Shown: in pieces, positions 15,901 to 58,720 of the stretch
How the letters are laid out: the number at the start of each line of letters is the position of its first letter
How positions within the stretch are numbered: the stretch's first letter is position 1
NCBI RefSeq assembly: GCF_026914265.1
Contig: NC_069136.1
Coordinates: 21,172,715-21,236,714 of the forward strand
Source of the DNA: Mya arenaria
Taxonomy: Eukaryota > Mollusca > Bivalvia > Myida > Myidae
Length of the DNA stretch: 64,000 nt
Direction of reading: 5' to 3'
The notes under the pieces: generated by a model
What the model was told of the DNA's origin: nothing
Seen by the model: the letters and a program-made list of their open reading frames with translations, nothing else
Databases searched by the model: none
Translations under genes and position numbers: made by a program

Positions 15901-18900
15901 TTATTTTGCTTGACATTTAGTCTGCTTGCTTCACTTATGCTTATCAATGTTGCTTGATATCTATTTGTGTTCTACTTACTGTTTGCTTGCTAAATGTACT
16001 GTTGCTAAATGCTAATATTGATTATTGTTTTTGTGGTCCTCTATGCCTAAATCTTGAATAAAATTTCTATTAATCTGCCTGACTTGTTGTATTTATCTTA
16101 TAAGTGATAAAACATAGTTAGAAAGTGTGAATTCGTACAGAACTTTAAGACACATTGACAAAGAAACTGAAAAATCGCTCTTTACCTTTCTTGAATTTTG
16201 CATCGGAACTAAACCACACGATTCCGAGGTAGCTATCGGCACAAATCTCCTCTTCACTCTTTATTATGTATTTTCCAGCCTCATGCAAGCGTACTATGCG
16301 CCTTGGTGTGCTCTGTATGAAATGAGTTACATTTAAGCAGCTGCCACATAGAACAACAACCTCAAATCGATTATCTTTAAGCGTTTTATTCTAATAGTAA
16401 ATTGGGAAAATCAGTGCTACTAAGATAGGGAAAATGCAGCTTTTAAATGGCTTGTCTCATCGGGCGAGGAAGAGGACATACACTGAGAAGATTCGTTCAT
16501 CTTCATCCTGTTTCTGATGCAGAGAGATTGGTCAAAATCTCTGGGAAATGTTACAGTATATAAATTACACCACGTTAAACCCCCTATCCATATTGTTGTG
16601 ATTGCGGTTTCATCGGGTCTGTCAAAAAATCGAAACCCAACTGTAATGAACAACCCTTCCATGTTGAATCATATCCAAAGTGTTTTAACGAAAGGGATCT
16701 TATGTTAAGGTCATACCTTATTCATACTACTAGATGTATCCAGGACAAACACCTTTCTGCTTTTTGCCTCCTGTAAAATGGTGAATACTGGTGTAGTGTC
16801 GGTGTTTTCGGGGAGAGGTTCACTGTGGACTACAATTAAACCACATAACAATATTAGCACTTCTCTAGTTGTTTCCACAGAGTAAAATGTTGAGTGTATA
16901 CAGCATGATCCACAATATTTTCAGAGGACAGTTTTTATATCAATGATGTACACTGATATAATAAGCTCGACGTGATTTGCCCAATTGGAAATGACGTTTT
17001 AAAGTGTCACTCTTATTCAAAATGAATACATACACATGTATAACAAACATCACTTTTGAGTGACAAATCTTTAACTGCTTACTAAATAATGCATTTATGG
17101 AAAATATGATACTGATTACAATACTGCAACATTGTATTTAATAGCTGAAAACCCCAAATTATTAAATGATTGGTGAATGCTAAAAGATTTACAGTGATCT
17201 TCTATTGTCTCAGAAGGTAGAAATACCGTGTTTTCTGCACCTTTTTTCAAATTAAACGCAGTATCCTTCATAAGAACCATTGCTTTCGACAGTTATTAGT
17301 CCTTTTTGGTAAATTAAAACAATTGTATTAAATATGGAAAATCTCATTTGGGAGTAACAGTGCATCTTTAAATATCGTTTATAATAATAACATTTTATTT
17401 CTCAGTGTTAAACGCCAAAACGTAACTTCTTTCTTTACCAGGAGCTAAAATTATTGATAGCCTAAGTTTAAAAGGTAAAGTCGACAGAGTAATCAGGCAA
17501 GCATAGTTCATAAGAATTACCATTTGGACAAGGAAATTCAAGATCGCATTAATGCTTGCAGAAGTTAAATAAGTTTATAAAAGAGTTATTTACCTCCCTT
17601 AAAATCTGGATGTTCTCTCATGACAGCCCACACGCTCTTGTGGTCACAGTAAAGGTTCTGCTTATTTGTTGCAAGTCTGTTGTGTCTTCTCGTTTCAGGT
17701 GCATCTTCAGTATCGTCACAAAACAGGTCAAGCTGTAATAGAATTTATATGATAGTGAACCCCAATCATAATTTTATTTAATTGTCTTAATTATTACAAA
17801 GGCGCGTTTAAACGCGTTGGTGCAGACGGTTATTTTAAAGGATCATTTAACAGAGTAATTCTGACAATGAGCTAGACTAGTACAGGTATCCAACGAAATA
17901 AACTTGAAACGTTTGGAAGACAGGTTTAACTATGATTTCTTCATGCAACTATACGTTCCTGAACAGCTCTACAACATACTTGGTCCACGAATTGATTGTC
18001 CATGATGGACGCCCGTGCTGCTGGTTGTGTTAGATCAGGACAGAATCGACAACCAGGGTGTATACGTCTTGTTGAGTCATTGGTATCACACAATGGGCTA
18101 GCCTTACAGTCTGTACCGAACCCCACACGGCCTCTGATGTTCTCACTGCAGCTGAAGTGGAAATGCGTTAGAATCAACGTGTACTAGGATAAGGTTTTTA
18201 TATTTTCAAAGTACGCAAACAGACAAATACAAAACATTAAAATTGCTTGTAATAAAATCGAATTAAAATTATAGTGGTCTCTTGCTTTAACAGTGTTTTA
18301 TATAGTATTGGTAAAGTATACATTAAATAAATTGAACATCATTAGACATAAGTTGTGATAATAGTAAATTCTGAAGTTAAGTTATAAGTCTGTTCACAAT
18401 GATTTCATTCACTTTTTGTTGCTGTACAATCAGTTTCAGTTTAGACCTTTATGAATATTCCTGTTACCTTGTGGGTTTCCACTTCCCTCCAGCTTGGTAG
18501 AAATGCCCTTTGGACTCCTCATCAGTACCATATTCCGGAAACACGCCCCACCGTAGCTGTGCCCATTCGTGAACGAGAACATTCTCTGCGAAAATAACCG
18601 TCAACATATATATTTTTCATGATAGGAGAGTAGAACGAAAAGTCAGTAAAACCATTAACTTATGTTAAAATACAGTAAATCACTCCAGACAAGACACAAA
18701 AACATTCAATACACATACAATTGTATTTTCTATTAGTAAAAAATGAGGACATTGTTTTCGTTATACATGTATGTTTTATATGCATTCGTCTCGCATTTCG
18801 ACTGGCAAATGTATAATAAAAATCCTTTCGCTTTTGGTATTTGTTAAACAGATTGTTCAAAACTTATAAACTCTATTGAGGCAGATAATAATGTCAAATA

Positions 18901-27611: not shown

Positions 27612-27664
27612 AATGAAGCGATATTCTGTCCAAAATTATTGCAAGACACGATCACATTTTTCCT

Positions 27665-30976: not shown

Positions 30977-31659
30977 TTATACTCGATTGTCTTCAGAGAA
31001 TGTCGGATTGTCGCCGGTTTCTGAAAACAGTACATGTAACATAACAACACGAACATTCAATTAAACATAGCGCCACGATTCAAATAAATATATCGATGTA
31101 TAACTTTTCAATTTAACATTATTTTAGAACAAAATATTCAAATTCCACATAACATTACTTAGTACAATTTAATTGCAAGACATTTCAATTAAACGTCGAT
31201 ATTCATTAGCAACAGAATGCTTTAATATTAATATTAATATTAATTTCAAGAAGGTCTGCATTAACCTTGTGCATCTCAACAGGGTCTTTGTAAACCTTGT
31301 ACCCCACAACAGGGTCATCGATAACCTTGTGACTCTCAACCGAGTCTTTATTAACCTTGTGCCTCTCAACAGGGTCAACGTCTACCTTGTGCATCTCAAA
31401 AGCGTGTTCGTTAACAAAAAATACTTGCAAAAATGTGTGCACAAACCTTCCTTTCGTGGATTTCGGATGTAGTATGAGTTTTTCAGTTTATGCCTTCTTA
31501 GATTTATAACGACGCACGTTGCAATGATGATAATAACCGGTACTGCTGTTCCGATAACAACACCAATGATAAAACCCACGTTGGTTTTATCATCATCTAT
31601 GATAGAAGGAGGAGGACTGTACGTATGATTTGTTCTTCCGTTGAAGGAAATGTTAAATC
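30977..31659 (-). other. Copy 2 exons 16-17: TM helix and cytoplasmic tail, split by minisatellite intron
   Basis: Exon 16 (31659-31447) encodes a stalk with NHT and NIS glycosylation sequons, then a TM helix at about residues 870-895 (core GFIIGVVIGTAVPVIIIIA) and a basic stop-transfer NLRRHKLK. It ends GAAG|GTTTGTGC in phase 1. Exon 17 (31020-30977) starts after CTGTTTTCAG and completes the frame with ETGDNPTFSEDNRV then TAA. Copy 3's exon 17 reads on for about 23 more codons. The last intron (31021-31446) contains the 30-bp repeat. Confidence 0.85.
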
Positions 31660-34600
31660 CTGTGAAAGGAAAAAAGCGGTTGTCTAAAACTATTGCGCTT
31701 TGGAAACATTTATGTCTTCTGATGCCAGGTTTTGTCAGTTTCTATATCTTCCTTACGTACATAAATTACGACTTAATTGTACTTTATCTTACCGTCATAC
31801 TTACCATTTGCTATTACTATTGACACAATATTAGACATAGCTCCCTCATTTCCAACCTCATCCAAAGCTCTAATGCCCAAAAAGGCTGTCTCGTTAAATT
31901 CTTTTTCAGCTGTTACAGAAATATCGACAGTCTCGTCTTCGCCTGAGTCTCTAGGGTAAAGGTTATGTTGACCAATGTCCAGAGCTTGCGCATTTCCAAA
32001 ATTATTTAACAAACTGTCTAAGTCGTTTGCATAGCGGAGTTTATAAGTTGTTGCTGAAATAAAAAGGTAACTAATTATCCAACTTCATTGTCATTTTAAT
32101 ACTCGTTTTACACTTTCTTAAATTCAAAGAAATTACGTTAAGTAGAAATGATTTAAATTGACCTCAAATAAAGTATTCAGTGGACAACACTTATTCATGT
32201 GTTATGTCAATGTGAGCCTATAAATGCGTTCATGTTACCACTTGGAATGCGATGAAAAAGGGCCATGGTGCGTTATTATACAGCATTATTGTAAAGTTGA
32301 ACATTTTAAGGGTTCCTGCTGTTGTTACCAAGGTAAATAAGGTGAACATGCCAAATATCATATATTTAACAAACATACCGTGTCATCATCTAATGCATAT
32401 ATTGCGGTTTCTGTGTGTGATTTTCTACTCTAAATGTTATGTACGTTTCATACAAATTGACATTTGTTTAATTAAATATTTTAACAACAAAATGATCAAG
32501 ATTGGTCGTTCTTAGTGTGGGCGTTTTGATTAGCTTACAAAGATATACAAGCATGGTACCTTGGCCAGTGTATCTGTCGTCACCTGTTGCTGTCCAGCGT
32601 ATTGTAAAATGTCGGGTGTTTCCATTCGTTTCCACATCTTCTATTCTGAGATCAGTAATCTTTCCCGGGGAAGTAGTATCCCCTATTGTTGTTGGAGATA
32701 AATTTGCATCCTCAACAAGTGAAAACCTTTCAAAACTTTCCTCAATGACAATTTCTTCAAAAGCCTCTGAATAATAAATTTCACTAGTTGAAACATAATC
32801 ATAGTACGTTTAATTTACAATTTGATAACATGAATACAACACAATTACGGATAGCGTTGGAACTGAAAAATCTATTAGGGGAGGCCTATTCATGTTGAGA
32901 TAAAAGGGCATAACTGTCCGCATAACAATACTATTTGAACGTAAAAGACTCACACTACAATCCAAATAGGACATTTTACGATTGGAACACAAAGTGCCAC
33001 TAAGTCAATGTGCCGTTTGTATAACCTGTTTATAAATGAGTTGAGTGATTACCTGGGTTTAATGTTGCGGCTCCGACAATGCCAGTCACAATAATGATTG
33101 AATTTGCCTTCACAGTGACGCGGGTTTCACTCCGGCCTTCTTTGGGACATTTTAACTGTCCTGTATAAGTTCCGTCGCCTGCTGTAATGTCTTTACCTAA
33201 ATAAGTTAGTAGGTATGTAATTTGAGCTTCAAATGAATCATTGGGACGAATAAAATATTCTTCACAATAATAAACCACTTAGGCTTGTGTAAACAGGTAA
33301 AATGCTTAGAATTGTAACCTATTCCATTGTCCCGTAAAATTACAAAACATGATCCAGACGTGGCGACGACGTTTGCATTCAAAACAGGAGCATTCCCCTT
33401 CAATACGTCCGTATAAACCACGTCGTCGGAGAAACGAGTCGTTACGGTAACTTGATGGTTATCCTTTGATTTAGATTTCACATCGTACTCCCAATTTATA
33501 GCTGTGTCAGGCTTTGTTTTGACAACAACAAAATATGTCCCTTTCTGAAAATATATAATATAGACACATAACGACGGCTCCTTGGGATGATTTAACAATA
33601 TTATTTCGTTGAAACTATGTGTAAGTTTAATGCAGACTTTCGCCTCGTCCTGTTCCTTAACGTTTCGCAACGGAACTTGGTCTTAACCTTATTTCTTTTC
33701 GAAATATTGTAAACATGTACGTATCATTTATAGCAAAACCTCTGAAGTTAAGCGAAAGCCTAGAAATTAATGCCGTTACTTAAGCTATTAGAAATTCAAA
33801 CAATAAAAACAGTTGACATGCATCACATTTGGTATTGTAAATACTTATGAAATAGTCCTCTACTGAAACAAGAACAAAGATAATATTACTTTGTATAAAA
33901 AGTAAGTCAATAAATGCATTATAGAAAGTTGAACTTACCCTTAATTTTCCAGTCAACCGTGCCATAATCGGTGTCTCACTTATATTTAAACTTTTCTCAA
34001 GAAAGCCCTCCTCTCTTCTTAGTTCAAAGTCAAAGTTTAGGCCAGGGTTGCTTGGAAATATGACAACTGTTGTGTTTAAACCCAGCCCATCATCGATAGT
34101 GAAATAAAAATTCAACACGCTGCTGTTCTTTAACGTCCCTGATCTCATCTACAAGACACAATGATTTTAAATCTAAAACAAACCATTGCAGCACAAGTTC
34201 GTACCCCATGCAATGTATGCGTCACATTATAGAATTTCTTATAATCAAAATGTATGTAAAATGGATGTTTAAATCTTAAATTGTAAATAAGTATTCAATG
34301 CTAATTCCTTGCGTTTAAACAGCAAATGAGCGTTTAGATCACTTGTGCAACAATATAAGTGTTGCTCCAAATGGGTATTAGTACGTATGCGTGTACATGC
34401 GGACTAACTTTATTGTGTTGCGTTAACCGTGTCTGCATGCAAAACACATTTTAAGAATGGCTCATACAAAGACCAGAGGATATTTGTTTATGGTAGTATC
34501 AAAAATCGTCCATAAACAGTATCACCTTCGCCTTACGACAAAGGATACCACTTTAACAATGGACAATTACTAAATGAATACTGCACCCTGAGTGCTAGTT

Positions 34601-37600
34601 CTAATGCATTGCACTTCTCTTAATGAGATCTATCTGATATGTATTGGCAGTTTGAAGTAAACATGAGATCTATCTGATATGTATAGGCAGTTTGAAGCAA
34701 ACACCTCAACGGCTTCACGTTATGCTCCAGACAAAAATAAATAACTAGTAAAAAAACAAAGATCAATCGATTCAATATACTGCATTCAGAATAATGGTTC
34801 CTGTGCACTGCACTTCTATCTGTATATAAAATTTGAATTAATACCTTAAGGGCATTTTAAGATATGCCCCGAACAAAAATAAGCATAAAAACATTCTGCA
34901 CCATGAGGTATGGTTCTTGTGCACTGCTATAATTTCCAATGATATCTATTTGTATTTGAAGTTTGAAGTACTTGTGAACTTTTCATATTATGCTCTGGAC
35001 AGAATTGCCCGGACGCACACAGGCACTTTCCCCCACATATACACGCGCCTACATTTCTATTCCCTTTCGAAGGTGGCTACTATACAAAGGCAAAGAAAAG
35101 TTATGTATCGAAGTATGAAAGAGCGAGCAGACATAGGATTACGTCGTGTTTTCTCAATTTCTCTATTTACTTTTTTTTTTTTAAATCATACCTCCTCTGA
35201 TTTACATCCGCCCCCGGTTATACTGTTCGACAATGCTTTGGATAAGACAGAAACAAACGTAATAGTTCCTCCAATCTCCAGAAAAAGACTTTTCCCACCA
35301 GTAATTTTCGAAACGTCGGCGAGTCGTACAGAAGACTGGTTTGAGATAGCGACTGTGTGTATGAGTATACCAAGATCTTTCGCTCTGTTTGCTTGCTCTG
35401 TTATTGTTAAATTGTTCGTCGTCTCTTCGCCATCAGACATAAGAATAATCTCAGAATGTTTTGAGGACGTGGGAAAGGTTTTTATGATTTCCTGAAGAAA
35501 AACTATATGTAAGTTGTGGTCTGTAATTTTGTGTTTATATTAGCACCTTAACTAATTTTCGGTTGCCATATTAGTTTTTCTTTACACTTAACATTAATTC
35601 CTTCTTTTTAGAATAGAAACTGCATCTTACTATTGTATAACCAATAATAGGAAAACCCTATTTTTATTTTAAGCACTTTTTTAATTCTTAAAAAACAATT
35701 TATATATATTGCTTATTATGTAATTCATAACGTTTTTGGTCTCTTTCTGACAAACTTATTTAATAATTATACATATAATAGTAATGTTCTGATAAAATCT
35801 TTCTTATAGAACCTCCATTCTCTTACAAAAGCAAGAATGCTTTTAATAATTTAATAGACAAATCAACATTGAGAGATTGAACTCTTACATCTATAGCAAG
35901 CTTCAGTCCACATCCGATACATGTACCGCCATCGGGAATCGTTGGAAGAGCATCAACTAGAACAGCCCTCGTGGCTCCACTATCGACCTTAGTAATAGCT
36001 GTAGAATGAGGGCGGTATTTGTTTTATTTTAAAAAATTTCAGCAATAAATTCGATTTTAAATTTTATGTGTTTATGCCTGGTTGTTAAAGAATAAACATA
36101 GGCTGTTGGCAATACAAATTGTGTTTTTTATGTGTTCAGATATTAAAGTAGACAGTTGTTGGTTGATGTCGTTTCTATTAAGTGTACGTAAAGTCAATGC
36201 ACTTATTCCAGTGCAAAACAGATTCATGGTTGGGAAATTTGATATAATGATCCAATTTAATCTGCGGAATATCTCGTTACAAAATGTTTTCACATTGATC
36301 TTCATATGAAAAAAATAAGGCTGATTCATTATGATCAGATTGGGTGAAATCGTACAACATGTTCAAAACCATAACAACGAAACCTAAAAGATGCACTTCA
36401 CCTTTCTTGACAGATGCGCTTGAATCAAACCACACGATTCCGAGGTAGCTATCGGCACAAATCTCCTCTTCACTTTCTATTATGTATTTTCCAGTTTCAT
36501 GCAAGCGTACTATCCTCATTGGTGTGTCCTGTATGAAAAGATATACCCATTTTTGGCAATGGCCACATACAGCACGAGTCTCAAATCGACTGTCATTTAG
36601 TGTTTTATTCTTATTAGTTATTTAGAAAATTAGTGCTACTAAAAAAGGGGGCATACATTTTTTAAACTGTTTATCCCATCAGGCTGGGCAAAGGACACAC
36701 CCTGAGGATATTGATAAAAATATCTTATGTTATCTTAAACCTGCTCCTGGTGTATAGAGATTTGCCAAAATCACTGGTATGGGAAATGTTTGGTGTATAT
36801 AAATCTTAATCAGTTAAACCAGCTAGATATGTAACTGTGACTGCGGTCTGACCTGGTCTGTCGAAAATTCAAAACCCCAATGTTATAATCTAACCCTCTT
36901 TCTAACGTCCCCTTTGTACCAATAAACTCGTGCAAAAACATGTAATGAATTATGTTTAACAACGGGAATCTAATATAGACCTCATACCAATTCCATACTG
37001 CCAGATTTATCCAGGACAAACACCTTTCTGCTCTTTGTTTCTTGTGAAACGGTGAATACTGGTGTAGTGTCGGTGTGTATGGGGAGACGTTCACTGTGGA
37101 CTACAATTAAAACGAATAGCATTTTAAACATTACCCTTGTATTTTCTGCAAAGAAAATGTGGAGTTTATAATGCAAAATTCACATTGCTTTGAAACGACA
37201 TTGTTTATTCGATTGATGCTATTTCATATTGCAAGCTCGATACCATTTGCCAATTGTTCACGACGTTGTATGTATCGTTTGTTTTATTTCTCAATGTTAA
37301 ACGCCGAAACAAACCTTACTTTCCTTACTTTCACCTTACATTGTATACAGTCAAAACTCAAAATAAGTATAATCGACAGAGAAATCCCTAATGTGCTTCA
37401 TGGAAATTATTATTTAGACTAGGTCATTCAAGATCGCATGAATGACCCTCGAAATGACCTTCAATCAGTAAATTGTGATATACCTCCAGTAAAATCAGAA
37501 TGTTCCCTCATGACAGCCCACACGCTCTTGTGGTCACAGTACAGGTTCTGCTTGTTTGTTGCAAGTCTGTTGTGTCTTTTCGCTGCAGGTGTACCTTCGC

Positions 37601-40600
37601 TGTCGTCACAAAACAGGTCCAGCTAAAATAGAAAGTAAATGCCATCGAGCCCAATATTAAAACAACAACACTTTGCTATTACAAAACCGCGTTAAACCGC
37701 GTTTAAACGCTTTATATCACATAAAATGTTCGACCCATTGTTCACATTCCGCTTATAGTACATATTGATAAGTGACTATAACAATGAGCTAGACTGTTTT
37801 AGTATCCAACAAAAACATAATGAAGCCAGGTACCCATATTTAACAAAAATATGTGTATGCAACCATACACTCCTAAACAGCTCTATAACATACTTGGTCC
37901 ACGAATTGGTTGTCCATAATGGACGCCCCTGCTACCGATTGTGTAAGATCAGGACAGAATCGACAACCGGGGTGGATACGTCGTGTTGAATCATTTGTAT
38001 CACACCACGAACTAGCCTTACAATTAGTACCGAACCCCACACGACCTTGAACGTTCTCACTGCAGCTGAAGTGGAAATAAATTGGTGTCAATGCGCCCTA
38101 GGATACTGGTATGTCATTTGTGTTCCACCATAAGCTTGATTGCAGTCAGGACCAACCAACGGCCTTGAAATTTTTCAATGAAGGTGAAGCGTAAATGGGT
38201 TTAATATCACACCACGGGCAAGCCTTACAGTCAGTGTAAATGCAAACACAAACTGGAACGTTGTTAGTACCACACCATGGACAAGACTTACAGCCAGTAC
38301 AGAACCCCACTCGGCCTTGGACGTTCGCACTGCAGCTGAAATGGAAACTAGTTAGTATCACACCATGGACAAGACTTACAGCCAGTATAGAAACCCACTC
38401 GGCCTTGGACGTTCGCACTGCAGCTGAAATGGAAACTAGTTAGTATCACACCATGGACAAGACGTACAGCCAGTATAGAACCCCACTCGGCCTTGGTCGT
38501 TCGCACTGCAGCTGAAATGAAAACTAGTTAGTATCACACCATGGGCTAGCCTTACTGTTAGTACAGAACCCCACGTGGCCTTCGACGTTCTCACTGCAGC
38601 TGAAATGGAAACTTGTTAGTATCACACCATGGGCTAGCCTTACTGTCAGTACAGAAACCCACTCGGCCTTTGATGTTCTCACTGCAGCTGAAATGAACAC
38701 TAGTTAGTATCACACCATGGACTAGCCTTATTGTTAGTACAGAGCACCACACGGCCTTGGATAATCTCACTACGGCTGAAATGAACACTAGTTAGTATCA
38801 CACCACGAACTACCTTTAAAGTCAGTACAGAACCCCGCGTGGCCTTGGACGTTCTCACTGCAGCTGAAATAGAAACTAGGTAGTATAACACCATGGATAA
38901 GACTTACAGCCAGTACAGAACCCCACTCGGCCTTGGACGTTCGCACTGCAGCTGAAATGGAAACTAGTTAGTATCACAAAATGGGCTAACCTTATTGTTA
39001 GTACAGAACCCCACTCGGCCTTGGACGTTCTCATTGCAGCTGAAATGGAAACTAGTTAGTATCACACCATGGGCTAGCCTTACTGTTAGTTCAGATCCCC
39101 ACTCGGCCTTGGATGTTCTCACTGCAGCTGAAATGAATACTAGTTAGTATCACACCATGGACAAGACTTACAGCCAGTACAGAACCCCACTCGGCCTTGG
39201 ACGTTCGCACTGCAGCTGAAATGGAAACTAGTTAGAATCACACCATGGGCTAGCCTTACTGTCAGTACAGAACCCCACTCGGCCTTGGATGTTCTCACTG
39301 CAGCTGAAATGAACACTAGTTAGAATCATACCATGGGCTAGCCTTATTGTTAGTACAGAACACGACTCGGCCTTGGATGTTCTCACTGCAGATGAAATGA
39401 ACACTAGTTAGTATCACACCACGGGCTAGCCTTATTGTTAGTACAAAACCCAACTCGGCCTTTGATGTTCTCACTGCAGCTGAAATGAACACTAGGTATT
39501 ATCACACCACGGGCTACCTTTAAAGTCAGTACAGAACCCCACGTGGCCTTGGACGTTCGCACTGCAGCTGAAATGGAAATTACTTAGTATCACACCATGG
39601 GTAGCCTTACTGTTAGTACAGAACCCCACGTGGTCTTGGAAGTTCGCACTGCAGCTGTAATGGAAACTAGGTAGTATCACACCATGGACAAGACTTACAG
39701 CCAGTACAAAACCCCACCGGCCACAAGTGGAAATAAGTATTGATAATCATAATACATACATCTAAAGTTGAATCATATGCCATCCCACAATGACTTCATT
39801 CACATTTCATCGACTTACGATTAGATTCAGTTAAGAGTCAAATACTACTCCTTTTACCTTGTGGGTTTCCACTTCCCTCCAGCTTGGTAGAAATGCCCTT
39901 TGGCTTCCTCATCGGTACCGTATTCAGGAAACACGCCCCACCGAAGCTGTGCCCATTCATGAACGAGAACGTTCTCTGTGAAAAGTAGTTTCAACATGAT
40001 TAAACCAAAGATTCAATTTGACCTTTCGGGATAAAAACAGAAGCTCTTTTAAAAATCATGAAAAACAACTTTCCCGATGTAAAGAATAATGCATATCATA
40101 TCACCCAAGGTAAGACACAAACATTCAAAAAAACATGTACGTACAATTTTCCTTTCATTAGTAATATAATAATGATAATGTTTTCTTTATTGTTTTTTGT
40201 GCACTCGTCTCGTTTTTCCACTAGCAATTGTATAATGAAATACCTTCCTAATCGCTTTGTTATTTAATTACTGCTTTCAGAAAATCTAATAATTTCTGTT
40301 TTGGCAGAAAATAGTGTCAAATAATAATTTTGTTATTTTATCGTCTTTCTTTGTTTCATATTTTCTATGCCATCCGTCCGTTGCACATTTTAAAAGGTGT
40401 TTCATGCACAATGCAGCTTTGAATGATATCAGTAGTGACTCCTTTGAAAATGCGACAACGCGAAGGGCGAAAATGCAAGAAAAAAATCGTGTTGACCCTT
40501 TTTCACGTCCTGGTTGACAGAGAAGGAGTATTTGCGCTAAAATGTTTGTGTACGAATTTTTCATTGCAATTAAAATTCACATCGAACATTTCAGTTTCAT

Positions 40601-40883
40601 TCCAATCCAGCCCCCTCGTAGTGTCTTACCATGTTTTCCAAAATCAGTCCTGGATGTGTTCTTGACGAATGACAAGGGGAGATAAGTGTACGTTCCTCCT
40701 TGTCCACAAATGTCATTGCCAAATGTCCTCGGGGTTATCAGTTGTCCGTCTTCTATCTGCAAGGAAACTAATTTGAAACCGATGCGGATGAATTGTAAAA
40801 CAAGTCTTGCCGAAAGTCATCGAGGTAGTCATCTGCATGTCTCATCAGGAATATGATCTTAAAAACAACGACACCCGTGAATA

Positions 40884-40924
<41 letters not shown>

Positions 40925-43619
40925 CCATGTTGTTGTTCTTTTAGCAACTTGACTTCATAGACTTTCCGTTGTTTTTGTCATAAAAACAGTTTGTCACAAA
41001 AACTAGTAACCGTAACTATTTTTTGTTCAGTTCTGATTAAGAAATTATCAGATATGGAACATTTACACTTGTATATGGACTTTGGTGTTGCACTTTTTTA
41101 AACAGCTGATGATAACACAAACCTACAAAACTGCATCCTTCATGCGTTTTACTTTTTCATGACAAGGAACTGATCTGAAAGGCATTGACATTAAACGTGC
41201 TTATCCGTGTGTTGTTACCTTGAAGTATCCGCGCTCGGATTGTTGGACTGGCTGGGCGTCTCTCTGTGGTGTCCAGGATCTTGGAACGACGATGTTGATT
41301 TCACCAAAATACACGCGCTGTTCCGTAGCCCTAAACAGCAATCGTGATGCGGCAGTAAAGATATCCTAGAAAATTGAAAATGTTAAACCACTTATGACTC
41401 TACGAGCAATATTCCAAAAAGTATGCGACGGAAGTTGATTGAGGACATATCTCTATAATAATGGTTTTGCTCAATGTTCGTTTTTGATCTGTATAGAGGT
41501 TTGTTAGTGATCAAAAGCCAGACCTTAACAGGTGATGTCATGTTTTATTCACCTGTAAGCTTTACAAATGTATGCTTGGACCCAGAGGTCAAGTGTTGAT
41601 TCTTTTTTATCAGTGCGGAATGAGAACTATTAACATTTCATTGAAATGTGTTATTTGTGACGAACATGTATCCGACAGCTCATTTAAAGTAAGTTGGGTT
41701 GTTTACAAAAAAAGTCAATGATTCGTTTAAATTTAAACCCAAACAGCTTAACAAAGTCCAATACTTAAAGATTAAAAGGTTTCCAAATTTTATTTTTATG
41801 TAGTTTTGATGTCGAAACTTTATTTTAACAAATATCCAATGCAATATTTATTCATGTAACCAGTTTTCAAGTTAATAAGTTTTGTATTCAAAGAACTCCG
41901 CTCATGAGAAAATGAAAGCATCAGTATATGGACAAGGAAATTCATAGTAAGAGCTATGCTACTTTGGTGACATAGCGAGCTGAGCACATTCTACAAAGGA
42001 AGTATATGTCGGATATTTCTTGAAATTCCTTTTGCATTTTCGGCATGTCTTCAGACAATAAGATTATGTGTTTTTCTAAATATGTTTCAGACAATCCGAT
42101 CAACATTGTCGTGTGGCTTTTTGAATAACAGTGTTAGTTAGAATAGTAAAAAGTGACTTAAATTAACTTCGAATAGAACAATGAAGAATACAGGGACAAG
42201 CCCAGTAGTCAGGAATTTAATCACAAATCCTGTTAAAAGGCACAAGGCCCAGACGACAATGAACACGAGACAGAAACGTATACAATCATACGAGTTACAA
42301 TAAATGCAAAAAAACAACATCCGATTAAAGTTTACAAACATCGAATATAAAAACGCATTTACGAACTGGTAAACAGGCATTGATTAACAAAGAATATCCA
42401 TGCCATTTTTATAATAAAAAGATCAGTATTGCAACACATCAATTATTTTTATTAAAAGATGTTACCTTCTGTGACCCAATGTGTTATAATATATTAAGAC
42501 TTCATTCAAAAGCTTGACTAACGTCCAAATATTACTAGTAGAATAATCTTAAATCTGTATAGATATATTCGATTCAATGTCAGAAGTATCCAATGTATTA
42601 TGCATTCCATAGTCTTGTCGTATTGATTTTTGCCACCAATAAAATCAGGAAAACAAAATGTACAATTAAACAAGCCTAACGTATTAACAGTTTACGTTCA
42701 TAGTTTACTTAAAGATGCACTATTACTCCTAAAAAGATTTAGCACAATAGATGCAATTGTTTAAATATACATGTACTAGAAAACATTTATACATGTCGAA
42801 AGCAATGGTTCTTATAAAGAATTCCGAGTTGAATTCGAAGGAATTGTGCAGAAAACACGGTATTTCTACCTCATGAGACTATAGTAGATCACTTTAAATA
42901 TCTAAGCGTTCACCAATCATTTAATTTATTTATTTTGGTTTCAGCTATCTAATACACTGTTACAATCTTGATATCAGTATTAACATTTTCCATAAATGGA
43001 TTATTTAGTAAGTTGTTCAAGATTTGTCATTCAAAATTTATGTTTGTTATACATGTGTATGTATTGATTTTGAATAAAAGTGTCACTTTAAGTAATTAAT
43101 ACTGTGAGGCTGGCTAGTGTATTGGATTCCAAAACATTCAAACAACCACACTGTTTGTTCGATTATCAACCGGATCTAGTTTGAAAATACGATTAAAGCA
43201 TTATGCACACTTGCACATGCAACACCACTGCATAATAAGGAGTGAGTGTGTGTCAAAATGATTATTTAATTTGAAGGGGACGAACGACCGAACTTAAAGA
43301 AATTAAAGAAACACGAAATATACTAGACAACATAACTATCTAGCATCTATGTCCCATGGTACGTTGATACAACGAACTAAGAAAAACATCAATTTATAAT
43401 CTTATACAAAGTACGTCTTCCACCTTTTGAAAACAATATTTTGATATGTTAGTAAATTAGTGATAATTAACTCAAGATTACCTTTATTCTGTCGATTAAG
43501 CTTTGATCTTCGGTCACAAGATCATGAACAGCGACGTATATCCCTTCATATCTATTGTCTTTTAATGTAACACCATAACAAACCCCTATGAAGAAAGCCA
43601 AAGCAAACAAAACGCGCAT
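30977..43619 (-). CDS. CLCA: CLCA-family protein, copy 2 (intact, 17 exons)
   Basis: Calcium-activated chloride channel regulator family: a cell-surface or secreted glycoprotein that modulates chloride channels in other animals. Exons in transcript order: 43619-43482, 41365-41219, 40756-40630, 39975-39858, 38065-37894, 37622-37484, 37100-36988, 36528-36402, 35998-35889, 35491-35192, 34148-33939, 33544-33319, 33196-33053, 32766-32560, 32053-31805, 31659-31447, 31020-30977. All introns are GT-AG and all phases agree. They join to 2784 nt, 927 residues plus stop, the usual CLCA length. Order: signal peptide, metalloprotease-like domain, Cys-rich segment, VWA, beta-sandwich, FnIII, TM helix, short tail. 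Start chosen at the ATG opening a hydrophobic leader. The stop is earlier than in copy 3 by a substitution, shortening the tail by about 23 residues. It is the only copy here with an unbroken frame. Confidence 0.93.
31251..31412. repeat. 30-bp minisatellite, short allele in intron 16 of copy 2
   Basis: Five to six units of the same 30-bp repeat as at 1-6552, with the same flanks as copy 3's array: an AATATTAATTTCAAGA-like start and a CTCAAAAGCGTGTTCG end. The same locus is thus 0.16 kb in copy 2 and 3.5 kb in copy 3. Confidence 0.9.
31805..32766 (-). other. Copy 2 exons 14-15: fibronectin type III-like domain
   Basis: Residues about 691-842. Exon 14 has the family signature PGKITDLRIED...IRWTATGDD, matching PPGQITDLKA...LTWTAPGDD of CLCA1. 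Exon 15 has YKLRYANDL and the terminal FLGIRALDEVGNEGAMSN, matching FIAIQAVDKVDLKSEISN. Both boundaries are phase 1, which is typical of FnIII cassettes. Confidence 0.88.
33053..34148 (-). other. Copy 2 exons 11-13: beta-sandwich region
   Basis: Residues 498-690. Exon 11 begins at ATGAGATCAGGGACG after a TTGTAG acceptor. That ATG is internal, not a start. Exon 12 holds SKSKDNHQVTVTTRF and GNAPVLNANVVA, resembling the GASPILRASVTA motif of CLCA1, followed by LRDNG (family: LLDNGAGAD). Exon 13 continues DGTYTG, as the family continues DGVYS. All four exons 11-14 are missing from copy 3. Confidence 0.85.
34500..35040 (+). repeat. Bivalve-type dispersed repeat, intron 10 of copy 2
   Basis: Counterpart of 10430-11030 at the same intron position, so it was inserted before copies 1 and 2 split. 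Contains an extra local duplication of a 46-bp piece (34624-34669 and 34670-34715, ATGAGATCTATCTGATATGT twice). Ends near GCCCGGACGCACACAGGC. Confidence 0.65.
35192..37100 (-). other. Copy 2 exons 7-10: von Willebrand factor A domain
   Basis: Residues 281-497. The MIDAS metal site is complete: DKSGSM at 311-316 supplies DxSxS, Thr386 in GGTCIGCGL and Asp417 in LMSDGE supply the other ligands, with normal VWA spacing. Exon 8 carries SYLGIVWFDSSA, like VGMVTFDSAA of vertebrate CLCA1. Exon 10 (300 nt) carries the LGILIHTVAI and KITGGKSLFL strands. An intact MIDAS indicates divalent-cation ligand binding, as proposed for CLCA action on channel partners. Confidence 0.9.
37484..38065 (-). other. 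Copy 2 exons 5-6: cysteine-rich segment
   Basis: Residues about 177-280. Exon 5 begins at CAG|CTGCAGTGAGAAC and encodes a Cys-rich stretch (CKASSWCDTN, then PGCRFCPDL) ending in ASIMDNQFVDQ, matching the conserved ASIM region of the family. Exon 6 encodes CDDSEG...KQNLYCDHKSVWAVM, matching the family's segment before the VWA domain. The exon 5 donor is GACCAA|GTATGT. The start of exon 5 is the source of the tandem array lying upstream of it in intron 4. Confidence 0.85.
38100..39722 (-). repeat. 88-bp tandem array derived from exon 5, intron 4 of copy 2
   Basis: About 16 units spaced 88 bp. In the gene's sense direction each unit holds TACTAAC, a pyrimidine run, TTTCAG, then a copy of the first part of exon 5 (CTGCAGTGAGAACGT onward) ending TGTGATACTAACTAG. 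The translated start resembles exon 5's CSENVQGRVGF. Units nearest the true exon 5 (about 38100-38300) are the most diverged and those farther away the most alike. The 88-bp length shifts the frame between units, so the array is not an extended reading frame. Copy 1 has only the single exon 5. Confidence 0.9.
39858..41365 (-). other. Copy 2 exons 2-4: metalloprotease-like domain, degenerate zinc motif
   Basis: Residues 47 to about 177. Exon 2 carries the family segment around YFGEINIVVPRSW, exon 3 GNDICGQGGTYTYLPLSFV, and exon 4 the active-site region. Active CLCA members have HEXXH with a downstream Asp (HEWAHLRWGVFDE in human CLCA1), which binds zinc and allows self-cleavage. Here the sequence is HEWAQLRWGVFPE (residues 143-155): the first His and the Glu remain, the second His is Gln, and the Asp position is Pro. 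Inference: zinc binding and self-cleavage are probably lost. Copies 1 and 3 have the same change. Confidence 0.88.
40884..40927. repeat. (CAT)n microsatellite, intron 2 of copy 2
   Basis: About 14 trinucleotides, orthologous in position to the tracts at 20165 and 59931. Confidence 0.95.
42713..43087 (-). mobile_element. TTAA MITE family B, in intron 1 of CLCA copy 2
   Basis: 375 bp, reverse orientation to the copy at 17003, with TTAA at 42709-42712 and 43088-43091. Ends read AGATGCACTATTACTC and GAATAAAAGTGTCACT. Shared at the same site by CLCA copy 3 (61863-62237), so it was present before that duplication. Confidence 0.85.
43482..43619 (-). other. Copy 2 exon 1: signal peptide and start of N-domain
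   Basis: Encodes residues 1-46. The leader MRVLFALAFFIGVCYG is a typical signal peptide with a basic N-end, hydrophobic core and small residue before the likely cleavage. It is followed by the CLCA N-domain opening (YEGIYVAVHD). The exon ends in phase 0 at AAG|GTAATC. The same exon recurs at 27611, 47640 and 62769, so it is the best marker for counting gene copies in this cluster. Confidence 0.9.
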
Positions 43620-43671
43620 GATGAAGCGATATTCTTTCTAAAATGATTGTAAAGGGCAGTCACATTTACCT

Positions 43672-47460: not shown

Positions 47461-47502
47461 TTAAGTACACTGATAGATTAGCGCTTAAAAACGCACGGTT
47501 AC

Positions 47503-47640
47503 CTTTATTCTGTCGATTAAACTTAGATCTTCGGTCACAAGATCATGAACAGCGACGTATATCCCTTCATATTTATTGTCTTTTAATGTAACACCATAAC
47601 AAAACCCTAAGAAGGGAACAAGAACAAGCAACATGCGCAT
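47503..47640 (-). pseudogene. Orphan CLCA first exon
   Basis: A complete copy of exon 1 with a good donor (AAG|GTAACC) encoding MRMLLVLVPFLGFCYG plus VTLKDNKYEGIYVAVHD and the rest of the 46 residues, all open. It resembles copy 1's leader (MRMLL) more than that of copies 2 and 3 (MRVLF). No exons 2-17 follow before copy 2's own exon 1 at 43619. It is either the relic of a fourth gene whose body was deleted, or an upstream alternative first exon for copy 2, since its phase-0 donor could join copy 2 exon 2. Confidence 0.8.
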
Positions 47641-47691
47641 GATGAAGCGATATTCTGTCCAAAACGATTGTACGACACGACCACTTCTACG

Positions 47692-47792
47692 TTTAGCGTT
47701 TAAATATGAGTATACTATTACTCAAATACTCTTCGCGTCTTATCTATCGTCGGATCAGTTCTACATTGAGCGCTAAAATATGGGTATAAATT
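47692..47792 (-). promoter_or_regulatory. Doubled promoter box before the orphan exon
   Basis: The conserved block occurs twice, at 47692-47718 (TATACTCATATTTAAACGC in sense) and at 47766-47792 (TTTATACCCATATTTTAGCG), each followed by similar bases. The other first exons have it once. Confidence 0.5.
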
Positions 47793-49552: not shown

Positions 49553-49904
49553 TTAATAAACGACCATTTGACCATGACTTCCGTATCCCTTGTAGACGTA
49601 TGCTGTTTGTGTTTGATGGTTATATGCTCGATTGCCTTCAGAGAATGACGGATTGTCGCCGGTTTCTGAAAACAGTACATGTAACATAACAAAACGAACT
49701 TTCAATTAAGCATAGCGCCACGATTCTAATCAATATATCGATGTATAACTATTCAATTTAGCATTTTTGCAGAACAAAATATTCCAATTCAACACAATAT
49801 TACTTAGTACAATTTAATTGCAAGAAAGTTGATATACACGACATTCAATTAAACGTCGGTATTCATTAGCAACAAAGTGCTTTAATATAAATATTAATCT
49901 CAAG

Positions 49905-52900
49905 AGGGTCTGGATTAACCTTGTGCATATCAACAGGGTCATCGTTTACCTTGTGCCTCTCAACAGGGCCTTTGGTTACCTTGTGCCTGTCAACAGTACT
50001 TTGTTATCCTTGTGTCCCTCAACCGGGTTTTCGTTAACCTTGTGATTTATAACAGTGTCTTGGTTAACCTTGTATCTCTCAACAGGGTCTTTGTTAACCT
50101 TGTGTCTCTCAACCGGGATAATATTAACCTTGTGCCTCACAATAGGGTCTTTGTTAACCTTGTGCATCTCGACAGGGCCTTTTTAAGATCGTGCATCGCA
50201 AAAAGGGTCTTTGTTAGCATTGTGCCTCTCAACCGGGATTTTATTAACCTTTTGCCTCACAACAGGGTCTTTGTTAACAGTATACATCTCAACAGGGTCT
50301 TTGTTAACAGTGTACATCTCAACGGGGTCTTGGTTAACATTTTGCCTCACAGAGTCTTTGTAAAACTTGTGCCTCACAACAAGGTCATCGTTAACTAAGT
50401 GCATCACAACAGGGTCTTTGTTAACATCTTAATTAACATCTCAACACGGTCTTTGTTAACAGTGTGCCTCTCAACAGGATCTTTGTTAACATTGTGCATC
50501 TCAACAAGGTCTTTGTTAACCTTGTGCCTCACAACAGGGACTTTGTTAACCTTGTGCTTCACAACAGGTTCTTTGTTAACAAAGTGCATCACAACAGGGT
50601 CTTTGTTAACGTCTTAATTAACATCTCAACACGGTCTTTGTTAACATTGTGCCTCACAACAGGGTCATCGTTTACCTTGCACCTCTTAACAGGATCTTTG
50701 TTAACCTTGTGCGTCTCAAAAGGGTTTTAGTCAACCTTGTGCCTCACAATAGGGTCTTTGTTAACTTTGGGTCTCTCAAGTGTACTTTGTTTACCTTGTG
50801 CCTCACAACAAGGACTTTGTTAACCTTATCCTCACAACAGGGTCTTTGTTAACCAAGTGCATCACAACCGGGTCTTTGTTAACGTCTTAATTAACATCTC
50901 AACACGGTCTTTGTTAACATCGTGCCTCACAACATGGTCATCGTTTACCTTGTACCTCTTAACAGGGTCTGTATTAACCATGTGCGTCTCAAAAGTGTTT
51001 AGTTAACCTTGTGCCTCACAATAGGGTCTGTTTTAACCTTGGGACTCTCAACAGTACTTTGTTGACCTTTTTTCTCAACAATACTTTGTTAGATTTATGC
51101 ATCAACCAGGTTATCGTTTACCTTGTTCATCTTAACAGGGTTATCGTTTACCTTGTTCATCTTAACAGGGTCATGGTTAACCTTATGCCGCTCAAAACGG
51201 TCTTCGTTAACGTTGTGCATCACAACCGGGTCATCGTTTACCTTGTGCCTCACAGCAGGGTCATGGCTAACCTTGTTCATCTCAACAGGGTTATAGTTTA
51301 CCTTGTTCATCTTAACAAGGTCATGGTTAACCAAATGCTGTTCAACAGGGTCTTCGTTAACCTTGTGCCTCACAACAGGGTCATCGTTTACCTTGTGCAT
51401 CATAACAGGGTCATCGTTTACCTTGTGCCTCACAACAGGTTCATCGTTTACCTTGTGCCTCACAACAGGGTCATGGTTAACCTTGTTCATCTCAACAGGG
51501 TTATCGATTACCTTGTTCATCTTTACAGGGTCTGTTTTAACCTTGTGTCTCTCAACTGGGTCTGTGTTAACCTTGAGCTTCTCATTAGTACTTTGTTAAC
51601 CTTGTTCATCTCAACAGGGTTATCGTTTACCTTGTTCATCTTAACAATGTCTGTTTTAACCTTGTGCCTCTTAACTGGGTCTGTGTTAACCTTGGGCCTG
51701 TCAACAGGGTCATCGTTAACCGTGTGCATCTCAACAGGGTCATCGTTAACCGTATGCATCTCAACAGGGTCATCGTTAACCTTGTGCCTCTTAACAGGGT
51801 CATCGTTAACCGTGTGCCTCTCAACAGGGTCATCGTTAACCGTGTGCCTCTCAACAGGGTCATCGTTAACCGTGTGTCTCTCAATAGAACTTTGTTAACC
51901 TTGTGCATCTCAACAGAGTCATCGTTTATCTAGTACCTCTCAACAGGGTCTGTTTTAACCTTGTGCCTTTTCAAAAGCACTTTGTTAACTTTGTGTCTCT
52001 CAACAGTACTTTGTTAACCTTGTGGATCTCAACCGGGTTATCGTTTACCTTGTATGTTTTAACCTTGTGCTTTTCGACAGAGTCTTTTTTAATCCTGTGC
52101 ATCTCAACAGGGTCTTCGTTAACCTTGTGCCTAACAACAGGGTCTTTGTTAACCTTGGGTATCTCAAGTTTAATTTGTTAACCTTGTGCCTCTCAAGAGG
52201 GTCATATTTTACCTTGTGCCATTTTACAGGGTCTGTTTTAACCTTGGAATTCTCAACAGGGTCTTATTTAACCTTGGACCATTCAACAGGGTCTGCGTTA
52301 ACCTTGTGCCCCTCAACAGGGTCTTCGTTAACCTTGAGACCCTCAAAAGGGTCTTCGTTAAACTTGTGCCTTACAACAGGGTCATGGTTTACCTTGTACC
52401 TCACAACAGGGTCAACGTTAACCTTGTGTTTATCAACAGGGTCTTCGTTAACCTTCTGCCGCTCAACAGGGTCTTCGTTAATCTGGTGACTCTCAACAGG
52501 GTCATCGTTAACATTGTTACTCTCAACAGGGTCATCATTGACCTCGTGCCAAACAATAGGTTCTTCGTTATCATTGTGCCTTTACACAGGGTCATCGTTA
52601 ACCTTGTACTTCACAACAGGGTCATCGTTAACCTTGAGTCTCTCAACAGGGTCTGCGTTAACCTTATTCCTCACAACAGGGTCATTTTTAACCTTGTGCC
52701 TCTCAACATGATCTGCGTTAAACTTGTGCCTCTCAACAGGTTCATCGTTAACCTTGTGCCTCTCGACAGGTTCTTCGTTAACCTTGTACCTCAAAAACAG
52801 GGTCATCGTTAACCTTGTGCTTCTCAACAGGGTATTCGTTAACCTTGTACCTCTCAACAGGGTCTTCGTTAACCTTGGACCTCAAAATCAGGGTCATCGT

Positions 52901-53432
52901 TAACCTTGTGCATCTCAACAGGGTCTTCGTTAACCTTATGCCTCTCAAAGGGTCTTCGTTAACCTTGTACCTCAACAACAGAGTCATCGTTAACCTTGTG
53001 CCTATCAACAGGGTATTCGTTAACCTTGTACCTCACAACGGGGTCATCGTTAAGCTTGTACATCACATCAGGGTCATCGTTTACCTTGTGCCTCACAACA
53101 GGGTCTTTGTTAATCTTGTGCCTCACAACAGGGTCTTTGTTAACCCTGTGCCTCTCAACAGGGTATTCGTTAACCTTGTGCCTCACAACACGGTCTTTGT
53201 TAACCTTGTCCCTCTCAACAGGGTCTTTGTTAACCTTGTGCCTCTCAGCAGGGTCATCTTTAACCTTGTGTCTCTCAACAGGGTCATCGTTCACCTTGTA
53301 TCTCTCAACAGGGTTTTCGTTAACATTTTGCCTCACAACAGGCTCTTTGTTAAACTTGTGCCTTCAAACGGGGCATGATTTAACCTTGTGCCTCACGACA
53401 GGGTCATTGTTTACCTTGTGCCTCTCAAAAGC
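49905..53432. repeat. 30-bp minisatellite, intron 16 of copy 3
   Basis: About 117 units, more varied than the array at 1-6552 (GTCTTTGTTAACC, GTCATCGTTTACC and GTCTGTTTTAACC forms). A higher-order period is visible near 50420, 50610 and 50890, where CTTAATTAACATCTCAACAC recurs. It lies between exon 17 (49553-49665) and exon 16 (53475-53687) of copy 3. Confidence 0.93.
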
Positions 53433-55140: not shown

Positions 55141-57034
55141 TGTAGTGCTAAACAGTTCAAAGGTTGGGAAACTTGATATAATGATCCAATCTGCGGAATA
55201 TCTCGTTACAAAAAGTGTTCACGTTGATCATCATATAAAAAATAAGGGTGATTCATTATGATCAGATTGCGTGAAATCGTACAACATGTTCAAAACCATA
55301 ACAACGAAACAGAAAACATGCACTTCACCTTTCTTGACTAATGCGCTTTCATTAAACCACACGATTCCGAGGTAGCTATCGGCACAAATCTCCTCTTCAT
55401 TCTCGAGTATGTATTTTCCAGTTTCATGCAAGCGTACTATCCTCATTGGTGTGTCCTGTATCAAAAGATATACCCATTTTTGGCAGTGGCCACATACAGC
55501 GCGAGTCTCAAATCGACTGCCATTTAGTGATTTATTCTTATTAGTTAGTCAGTTGTTAGAAAATGTAGTGCTACTAAAAAGTGGCATATACCTTTTAAAC
55601 TGTTCTATCCCGTCAGGCGGGACAGAGGACACACCCTGGGGATATTGATAAAAATATATTATGTTATCTTTAACCTGCTCCTTGTGTAGAGAGATTTGCC
55701 AAAATCACTGGTATGGGAAATGTTTGGTGTATATAAATCTTAACAGGTTAAACCAGCTAGATATGTTGCTCTGACTGCGGTCTGACCTGGTCCGTCAAAA
55801 ATTCAAAACCCCAATGTTATAATCTACCCCTCTTTCTAACGTCTCCTCTGTACCCATATACTCGTGCAAAAAAAATTAAATAAATTATGTTTTACAACAG
55901 GAATTTAATAAAGACCTCATACCTATTCCATGCTGCCTGATTTATCCAGGACAAACACCTTTCTGCTCTTTACCTCTTATAAAATGGTGTATACTGGTGT
56001 TGTGTAGGTGTCTTCGGGGAGACGTTCACTGTGGACTACAATTAAAACGAAGAACAATTTAAACACTACTCTTGTATTTTCTGCAAAGAAAATGTGGAGT
56101 TTATAATGCAAAATTCACATTGCTTTGAAACGACATTGTTAATTCCATTGATGCAAGTTGATATTGCAAGCTCGACACCATTTGCCCTATTGTACACGAC
56201 GTTGTATGTATCGTTTGTTTTATTTCTCAACCTTACTTTCCTTACTTTTACCTTACATTGTTTACAATTAAAACACAAAATAAGTATAATCGACAGAGAA
56301 CTCCATAACGGGCTTATGAAAATTACCATTTGGACTAGGATATTCAAGATCGCATGAATTACCCTCGAAGTGACTTTCAATCAGTAAATTGTGATATACC
56401 TCCAGTAAAATCAAAATGTTCCCTCATGACAGCCCACACGCTCTTATGGTCTCAGTACAGGTTCTGCTTGTTTGTTGCAAGTCTGTTGTGTCTTTTCGCT
56501 GCAGGTGTACCTTCGCTGTCGTCACAAAACAGGTCAGAAACAGGTTAGAAAGTAAATGGCATCGAGCCCAAATTACAATATTACAAAACAACACTTTACT
56601 ATTACAAAACCATAAAAATATAAATAAAATGTTGGACCCATTGTTCACATTCCGCTTATAGTACATATTTATAAGTGACTATAACAATGAGCTAGACTGC
56701 TTTAGTATCCAACAAAAGCATAATGAAGCCAGGTAGCAATATTTAACAAAAATATTCGTATGCAACAATACACTCCTGAACAGCTCTATAACATACTAGG
56801 TCCACGAATTGGTTGTCCATAATGGACGCCCCTGCTACCGATTGTGTAAGATCAGGACAGAATCGACAGCCGGGGTGGATACGTCGTGTTGAATCATTTG
56901 TATCACACCACGAACTAGCCTTACAATTAGTACCGAACCCCACACGACCTTGAACGTTCTCACTGCAGCTGAAGTGGAAATAAATTGGTGTCAATGCGCC
57001 CTAGGATACTGGTATGTCATTTGTATTCCACCAT

Positions 57035-58720
57035 AAGCTTGATTGCAGTCAGGAACAACCAACGGCCTTGACAGATTTCGATAAAGGTGAAGCGTAAATG
57101 GGTTTAATATCACACCACGGGCAAGCCTTACAGTCAGTGTAGATGCAAACACAAACTGGAACGTTGTTAGTATCACACCATGGACAAGACTTACAGCCAG
57201 TACAGAACTCCACTCGGCCTTGGACGTTCGCACTGCAGCTGAAATGGAAACTAGTTAGTATCACACCATGGACAAGACTTACAGGCAGTATAGAACCCCA
57301 CTCGGCCTTGGACGTTCGCACTGCAGCTGAAATGGAAACTAGTCAGTATCACACCATGGACAAGTCTTACAGCCAGTATTGAACCCCACTCGGCCTTGGA
57401 CGTTCGCACTGCAGCTGAAATGAAAACTAGTTAGTATCACACCATGGGCTAGCCTTACAGTTAGTACAGAACCCCACGTGGCCTTCGACGTTCTCACTGC
57501 AGCTGAAATGGAAACTAGTTAGTATCACACCATGGGCTAGCCTTACTGTCAGTACAGAGCCCCACTCGGCCTTGGATGTTCTCACTGCAGCTGAAATGAA
57601 CACTAGTTAGTATCACACCATGCGCTAGCCTTATGGTTAGTACAGAACACGACTCGGCCTTGGATATTCTCACTGCAGCTGAAATGAACACTAGGTAAAA
57701 AAAAATTGTCACTGTCAACAAACATGGTTGCTGAAAATGCCGGACGATTTTGACATTTTTTCTATGCGTCTTTTAACCAAAAACATAGATTAAAAGTTTT
57801 TTTCTCGGATTTTTCACATATTTTTTCCCTGCGTCTAATACCCCCTATCGTCTTATACCCAGTATTTACGGTAGTATCACACCATGGACTAGCCTTATTG
57901 TTAGTACAGAACACGACTCAGCCTTGGATGTTCTCACTGCAGCTGAAATGAACACTAGTAAGTATCACACCACGGGCTAGCCTTATTGTTAGTACAGAAC
58001 CCCACTCGGCCTTGGATGTTCTCACTGCAGCTGAAATGAACACAAGGTATTATCAAACCACGGGCTACCTTTAAAGTCAGTACAGAACCCCACGTGGCCT
58101 TGGACGTTCTCACTGCAGCAGAAATGGAAACTAGTTAGTATCACACCATGGGCTAGCCTTACTGTTAGTACAGAACCCCACTCGGCCTTGGACGTTCGCA
58201 CTGCAGCTGAAATGGAAACGAGGTAGTATCACACCATGGACAAGACTTACAACCAGTACAGAACCCCACCGGCCTTGTACGTTCTCACTGCAGCTGAAAT
58301 AGAAACTAGTTAGTATCACACAATGGGCTAGCCTTATTGTTAGTACAGAACCCCACGTGGCCTTGGACGTTCTCATTGCAGCTGAAATGGAAACTAGTTA
58401 GTATCACACCATGGGCTAGCCTTACTGTGAGTACAGAATCCCACTCGGCCTTGGACGTTCTCACTGCAGCTGAAATGGAAACTAGTTAGTATCACACCAT
58501 GGGCTAGCCTTACTGTTAGTACAGAACCCCACGTGGCCTTGGACGTTCTCATTGCAGCTGAAATGGAAACTAGTTAGTATCACACCATGGGCTAGCCTTA
58601 CTGTTAGTACAGAACCCCACTCGGCTTTGGACGTTCTCACTGCAGCTGAAATGGAAATTACTTAGTATCACAACATGAGCAAGACTTACATTCAGTACAG
58701 AATTCGACACGGCCTGCAGC
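57035..58720 (-). repeat. 88-bp exon 5-derived array, intron 4 of copy 3
   Basis: Counterpart of the array at 38100-39722, with about 15 clear units plus diverged ones next to exon 5, and interrupted by a 174-bp insertion at 57698-57871. Each clear unit keeps the branch-point-like TACTAAC and a CAG acceptor. Unit order differs from copy 2, so the arrays have changed since duplication. Confidence 0.88.
57698..57871. mobile_element. Short TA-flanked insert (pogo/mariner-like MITE fragment)
   Basis: 174 bp interrupts one 88-bp unit; the unit's GGTAGTATCAC is split with TA on both sides (57696-57697, 57872-57873). The right end reads, reverse complemented, CCGTAAATACTGGGTATAAG. I see no matching inverted repeat on the A-rich left end, so it may be truncated. 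Family is inferred from the TA duplication only. Confidence 0.55.

Follow-up and report, generated by a model that had tools for sequence, protein, structure and literature searches.

A mutable 88-bp minisatellite made from the intron 4/exon 5 boundary of tandem CLCA genes in the clam Mya arenaria

Intron 4 of the CLCA gene g06 in Mya arenaria contains an array of 88-bp units in which the end of the intron runs into the start of exon 5. Judging from the sequence, we think it likely that this array is a mutable, mirage-type minisatellite of the intron 4/exon 5 boundary that is tolerated by splicing. In this view, the exon 4 donor would normally be spliced to the acceptor of the last, real exon 5, so that the array leaves as intron. 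As copies of an acceptor, the units would resemble one without having been kept as decoys. Coordinates are positions within the window, which is the whole 64,000-nt stretch of DNA that was analysed, and cluster positions (in Mb) refer to the contig that holds the window.

The array lies within a tandem cluster of CLCA genes

The model of g06 was fitted by eye to the reading frame and to GT/AG borders. Its predicted protein matches PF08434 at 17-279 (6.6e-57) and then the VWA domain PF00092 at 322-475 (1e-09), which indicates that the predicted product is a CLCA protein with the CLCA N-terminal domain followed by VWA. Seventeen CLCA copies lie in tandem at 21.08-21.46 Mb, with 17 matches to exon 4 and 16 to exon 5, and the 16 copies of exon 5 in the cluster are 82-100% identical. 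For g11-g17, the comparisons cover exons 4-6 or fewer. The features used below are as follows.

31382..43619, reverse strand: CLCA gene g06, 16-exon model, GT/AG at 15 of 15 introns, open frame of 949 aa
39858..39975, reverse strand: exon 4 of g06, donor AAG/GTAAAA, last base 39858
39671-39721, reverse strand: truncated first unit of the g06 array, found with the profile
38263..39669, reverse strand: 16 full 88-bp units in g06 intron 4, found with Tandem Repeats Finder and the profile
38119..38262, reverse strand: a pair of decayed units separating the array from the real exon 5, profile E values 6.3e-05 and 0.0052
38066..38093, reverse strand: real 3' splice site of g06 exon 5, with a TTGAC branch-like site (A at -23), a pyrimidine run and CAG
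37894..38065, reverse strand: real exon 5 of g06, 172 nt, phase 2 in and phase 0 out, first base 38065
17980..18151, reverse strand: exon 5 of the array-less paralogue g05
56797..56968, reverse strand: real exon 5 of g07, a broken gene
57166-58702, reverse strand: second array, in g07 intron 4, with 15 full units at 57166..58660, found with Tandem Repeats Finder and the profile

Exons 1-15 are open in the array-bearing genes g06, g08 and g10. Exon 16 measures 280 nt in g06 and 279 nt in g08, so their tails end in different frames. The gene g07 is broken: its exon 6 acceptor is lost, exons 6 and 7 contain stops, and exons 11-14 were not found.

Several other features of the cluster were recorded. 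At the exon 4 site of the CLCA metallohydrolase motif HEXXH, 16 of the 17 cluster exon 4 matches read HEWAQ (window 39947-39961 in g06), which means that the second histidine is lost, and g09 exon 4 is missing two residues at this site. Three similar first exons encoding signal peptides lie at window 47500-47709, 43473-43634 and 27465-27635; two of them are upstream of g06 and could serve as alternative first exons. The 3' ends of CLCA genes carry a 30-bp minisatellite (window 3-6552, 31246-31415 and 49898-53440) of 5.7 to more than 200 copies, which overlaps exon 16 in g06-g10. One of its frames is open over 1476 aa, and it may encode a tail of 10-aa repeats or be 3' UTR. Between exons 2 and 3 of g05, there is also a 207-bp tandem repeat of 4.3 copies with 96% matches (window 20629-21518).

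Each unit copies a 3' splice site and part of exon 5

Tandem Repeats Finder placed the array at 38263-39722, with a period of 88, 16.6 copies and 86% matches. As originally predicted, it lies in sense within intron 4, between exon 4 (39858) and exon 5 (38065). The units match the end of intron 4 and the start of exon 5, with a branch-like motif followed by TTTCCATTTCAG and then the opening 64-73 nt of exon 5, which bears out the view that a 3' splice site and a partial exon have been multiplied together. The same set of features was claimed for every unit, which goes too far: among the 16 full g06 units, CAG is present in 15, TACTAAC directly upstream of the acceptor in 10 (11 when counted at the unit's own end) and TAG in 14. 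Across the cluster, we counted 135 full units, 104 of them distinct, where a full unit is one with a profile score above 30 bits.

A donor inside each unit had also been predicted. Such a donor would indeed define a 44-nt piece (unit columns 16-59), but ACAGTAAGG occurs in 5 of the 16 full g06 units and GTAAG in 9. If these donors were used, 44-nt pieces or multiples of them could be spliced in as alternative exons that diversify the N-domain, and some unit donors (GCTGTAAGT) do score like weak true donors of g06. Against such cassette isoforms, the donor GT is less well conserved than most of the unit (81 of 135 units keep it), the 44-nt piece is out of frame, and stops are met on reading through the unit. 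A length of 44 nt is also short for exon definition. With the required donor in part of the units only, the cassette prediction fares poorly, and we consider it very improbable.

The original prediction pointed out that the true exon 5 acceptor has no TACTAAC just upstream. This is true but misleading, since the real site has TTGAC with its A at -23, and either TTGAC or TTGAT is found with an A at -23 in all 16 of 16 paralogues. CTAAY with an A at -17 of the real acceptor is found in 8 of 16 genes and is absent from g01, g06-g09, g12, g13 and g16. Its absence from the real acceptor of g06-g09, g12, g13 and g16 counts against the mirage reading. A tie between array size and loss of CTAAY was considered and is ruled out by g15, which has 16 units and keeps the site, and by g01, which has no array and lacks the site.

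Unit acceptors score like real ones without special conservation

We scored splice sites with a local matrix built from seven cluster genes (g01, g03, g04, g05, g06, g08 and g10; exon 5 left out) and with a generic animal matrix; with these matrices, the ranks are approximate. With the local matrix, the 15 AG-bearing g06 unit acceptors and the real acceptor take places 1-16 of 128 AGs, and the unit acceptors thus look usable. The real acceptor at 38066 ranks third with the local matrix and first with the generic one. The expectation that unit acceptors would outrank 38066 was therefore not borne out, as two score higher with the local matrix and none with the generic one. Because unit acceptors score like the real ones and some unit donors like weak true donors, occasional use of units is plausible.

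As also predicted, when the phase of exon 4 is continued past a unit acceptor, an in-frame stop is reached in 128 of 128 AG-bearing units from 11 genes. For this count, units were read straight on, and 7 further units have no AG. The stop is met within 247 nt in all 128 units, and at 73 nt in 85 of them. These stops are consistent with a poison-acceptor array, in which units would be used part of the time and each use would end in a stop, thereby lowering full-length CLCA, whether by nonsense-mediated decay or by yielding a short N-terminal piece for secretion; array length would serve as a dial. The scores also favour this possibility, in that 15 of the 16 g06 unit acceptors fall within the range of the cluster's real acceptors.

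If units were decoy or poison exons, their splice signals should be conserved above background, but the acceptor columns look like the rest of the unit. AG is intact in 128 of 135 units, which places it at rank 21 of 88 dinucleotides, and circular shifts are at least as conserved in 35% of cases for AG alone and in 25% for the 13-column acceptor. Because the unit splice signals are kept no better than the rest of the unit, and given the findings on unit number, gene integrity and substitution rates described below, we regard a poison-acceptor array as unlikely. A length-tunable bank of poison acceptors, in which more units would give more early-stopped transcripts and unit number would set the output of the 11 paralogues, is in our estimation decidedly improbable.

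Eleven paralogues share the array, and its length changes

Full units number 16 in g06, 15 in g07, 20 in g08, 15 in g09, 2 in g10, 3 in g11, 9 in g12, 22 in g13, 16 in g15, 14 in g16 and 3 in g17, with none in g01-g05. The array is thus present in 11 of the 17 tandem paralogues (2 to 22 full units), nine of which lie beyond the window in addition to g06 and g07, whereas five paralogues have no array and one (g14) has a remnant. The real exon 5 is present in 11 of the 11 genes with full arrays. A DNA search of the 1.216-Gb assembly in 18 contigs gave at least 66 matches, and those 66 are all in the CLCA cluster. In a midpoint-rooted tree of exons 4-6 from 16 copies, the 11 array-bearing genes form one group with moderate support (89/87); g05 adjoins this group (100/100), opposite a side made up of g01-g04 (100/100). 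From these patterns, the array probably arose a single time, in the shared ancestor of these 11 CLCA paralogues (12 with the g14 remnant).

In g14, exon 4 and the first units are followed by apparent intron 6 sequence (read by eye), which indicates that exons 5 and 6 are gone. The deletion seems to begin inside the second unit and to have removed the remaining array together with exons 5 and 6, and the array may promote rearrangement of this kind. Separately, the g07 array contains a 176-bp insert between its ninth and tenth full units (window 57694-57869), which may be a small mobile element, and the g16 array has a gap of similar size at the same place.

A link between arrays and gene decay was considered and rejected: arrays are found in open genes (g06, g08 and g10) as well as in broken ones (g07 and g09); array-less g02 is also flagged as broken. 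That open and broken genes both have arrays counts against the poison-acceptor reading as well.

Unit number has changed in genes that are otherwise nearly identical. From exon 5 on, 1 base in 1201 separates g06, which has 16 units, from g13, which has 22, and g13 units 7-22 match g06 units 1-16 one after another, each with at most 1 difference. Similarly, 4 bases in 1201 separate g12, with 9 units, from g13. Arrays of 9, 16 and 22 units thus occur next to 3' flanks that are identical except at 1-5 of 1201 bases, a comparison between paralogues or haplotypes and not between individuals. On the exon 4 side, 255 bases were compared, of which 8 differ between g06 and g13 and 2 between g12 and g13; for g06 and g13, the 5' side of intron 4 is thus less similar than the 3' side, a point against the favoured reading. 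The wide variation in unit number among genes with near-identical 3' flanks argues against poison acceptors. For the minisatellite that we favour, we infer that unequal exchange or slippage would have raised and lowered the number of units.

The near-identical downstream copies (g06/g12/g13 and g07/g09) raise the possibility that some of the cluster consists of two haplotypes placed one after the other, in which case the change in unit number would be allelic length variation. Carried further, this raises the question of whether haplotypes in series or mis-assembly of repeats made the paralogous arrays as an artefact, which we consider very improbable. Units differ among and within genes (104 distinct sequences among 135), exon or intron differences separate the copies with 2, 3, 9, 15, 16 and 20 units, and duplication of a haplotype would alter the number of genes but not the existence of the array.

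Exons downstream of the array are constrained

We compared g06 and g08, which have 16 and 20 units. In exons 5-15, we counted 45 changes over 2042 bases and found indels to be absent, whereas introns 5-14 show 243 changes in 4055 bases and 26 indels (Fisher, 4e-12 for changes and 3e-5 for indels). The closest counterparts of g08 units 7-10 are g06 units 2-5, taken in order, which suggests that the array is probably older than the split between the two genes. The protein downstream has thus probably been constrained while the array was in place, and constraint on exons 5-15 between array-bearing genes suggests that the real exon 5 has been used. The claim that units outcompete the real exon does not agree with this constraint, with unit scores that are no better than the real one or with the open frame of g06. 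Partial use of units would also leave the exons constrained.

As controls, two broken genes were compared with g06. For g07, 15 exon indels were found. For g09, exons show 80 changes in 2042 bases and no indels, and introns show 373 changes in 4030 bases and 55 indels, a pattern that resembles that of g06 and g08; presumably g09 broke recently. Recent breakage is therefore invisible to the constraint test, which is not very sharp.

In g06/g08, dN/dS is 0.51 for exons 5-15 and 0.07 for exons 1-4 (based on 28 and 2 nonsynonymous changes, respectively), and the pairs among g06, g08 and g10 give 0.42-0.51 and 0.07-0.15. In array-bearing pairs, constraint thus looks stronger on exons 1-4 than on exons 5-15, as would be expected if poison acceptors yielded a truncated product. 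However, array-less g05 compared with g06, g08 and g10 gives 0.38-0.39 for exons 5-15 and 0.11-0.15 for exons 1-4 (0.39 and 0.11 with g06). Because g05 shows the same contrast with no array, the contrast does not depend on the array, and it was rejected as a sign of a truncated product. Pairs among array-less g01, g03 and g04 give 0.27-0.34 for exons 5-15 and 0.19-0.28 for exons 1-4 (g04 exon 6 is flagged). A retrocopy with a spliced exon 4/5 junction was also sought, and none of 126 matches crosses the junction.

A candidate origin for the unit

In array-less g05, GATTCTAAC lies in the intron at -24 and GATACCAAT in the exon at +65, and the unit consensus carries GATACTAAC. The spacing from -24 to +65 is 88 bp, the length of the unit. 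In a first duplication, recombination probably joined the branch-site region of intron 4 (-24) to its look-alike in exon 5 (+65). TACTAAC and the in-frame TAG would both be products of this join, with TACTAAC occupying the place of the real acceptor's branch-like site. In the 16 genes, the 9-mers at the two places share 5-7 of their 9 letters; as background, 69 of 4054 9-mer pairs at 88-bp spacing in array-less genes reach at least 6 of 9. Counting against this origin, agreement in array-less genes is no more than 5 or 6 of 9 (5 in g01-g04 and 6 in g05).

Discussion

The clam array can be compared with three kinds of known element. Intron retention or detention can be promoted by decoy exons, for example in OGT, which are described as single, regulated elements. 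Like them, the clam units are intronic, splice-competent sites that could hold or divert the spliceosome; unlike them, the clam array is variable and its signals have no extra conservation.

Internal tandem repeats of human segmental duplications are similar in being minisatellites within recent paralogues, some of them at an exon-intron boundary. They differ in having on average 30-bp units and 4 copies; half are coding and alter the protein, and some make new introns (PMC2812944).

The closest anatomy is that of amphioxus. There, the 3' end of an intron is repeated in tandem together with the 5' part of exon 2 in the globin gene BflGb6, one haplotype having 6 units and another 3, and BflGb9 has a duplicate of a 3' exon boundary; the term "mirages" was given to such repeats (PMC3087553). 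Further amphioxus mirages are found in PGBD5 and troponin C (PMC3902484). The repeats in Adh3, BflGb6, BflGb9, troponin C and PGBD5 span an intron-exon boundary, many with AG or GT signals (PMC3087553, PMC3902484). Multiplication of a partial exon is thus unusual, as originally predicted, but not new. The clam array shares with mirages a boundary-spanning unit, an authentic boundary and exon that are retained, and instability of length, which in amphioxus is seen between haplotypes and in the clam between paralogues or haplotypes. Adh3 data and RT-PCR of globin genes suggest that regular splicing is undisturbed by mirages, although many of the units could act as cryptic sites (PMC3087553).

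The clam array differs from the amphioxus mirages in its phylum and in being common to 11 tandem paralogues. It is also longer, with up to 22 full units compared with 3-6 in BflGb6, and its unit of 88 bp compares with 150-160 bp in BflGb6, 157 bp in BflGb9 and 10-72 bp in Adh3. We found no mirages outside amphioxus among the matches listed from open-licence literature. Taken together, our results suggest that boundary-spanning minisatellites are not peculiar to amphioxus. The clam cluster forms a natural series, with 0, 2, 3, 9, 14-16, 20 and 22 copies of a seemingly good acceptor beside the same real exon, which would allow tests of how the spliceosome chooses among near-identical acceptors and of whether such repeats seed new introns.
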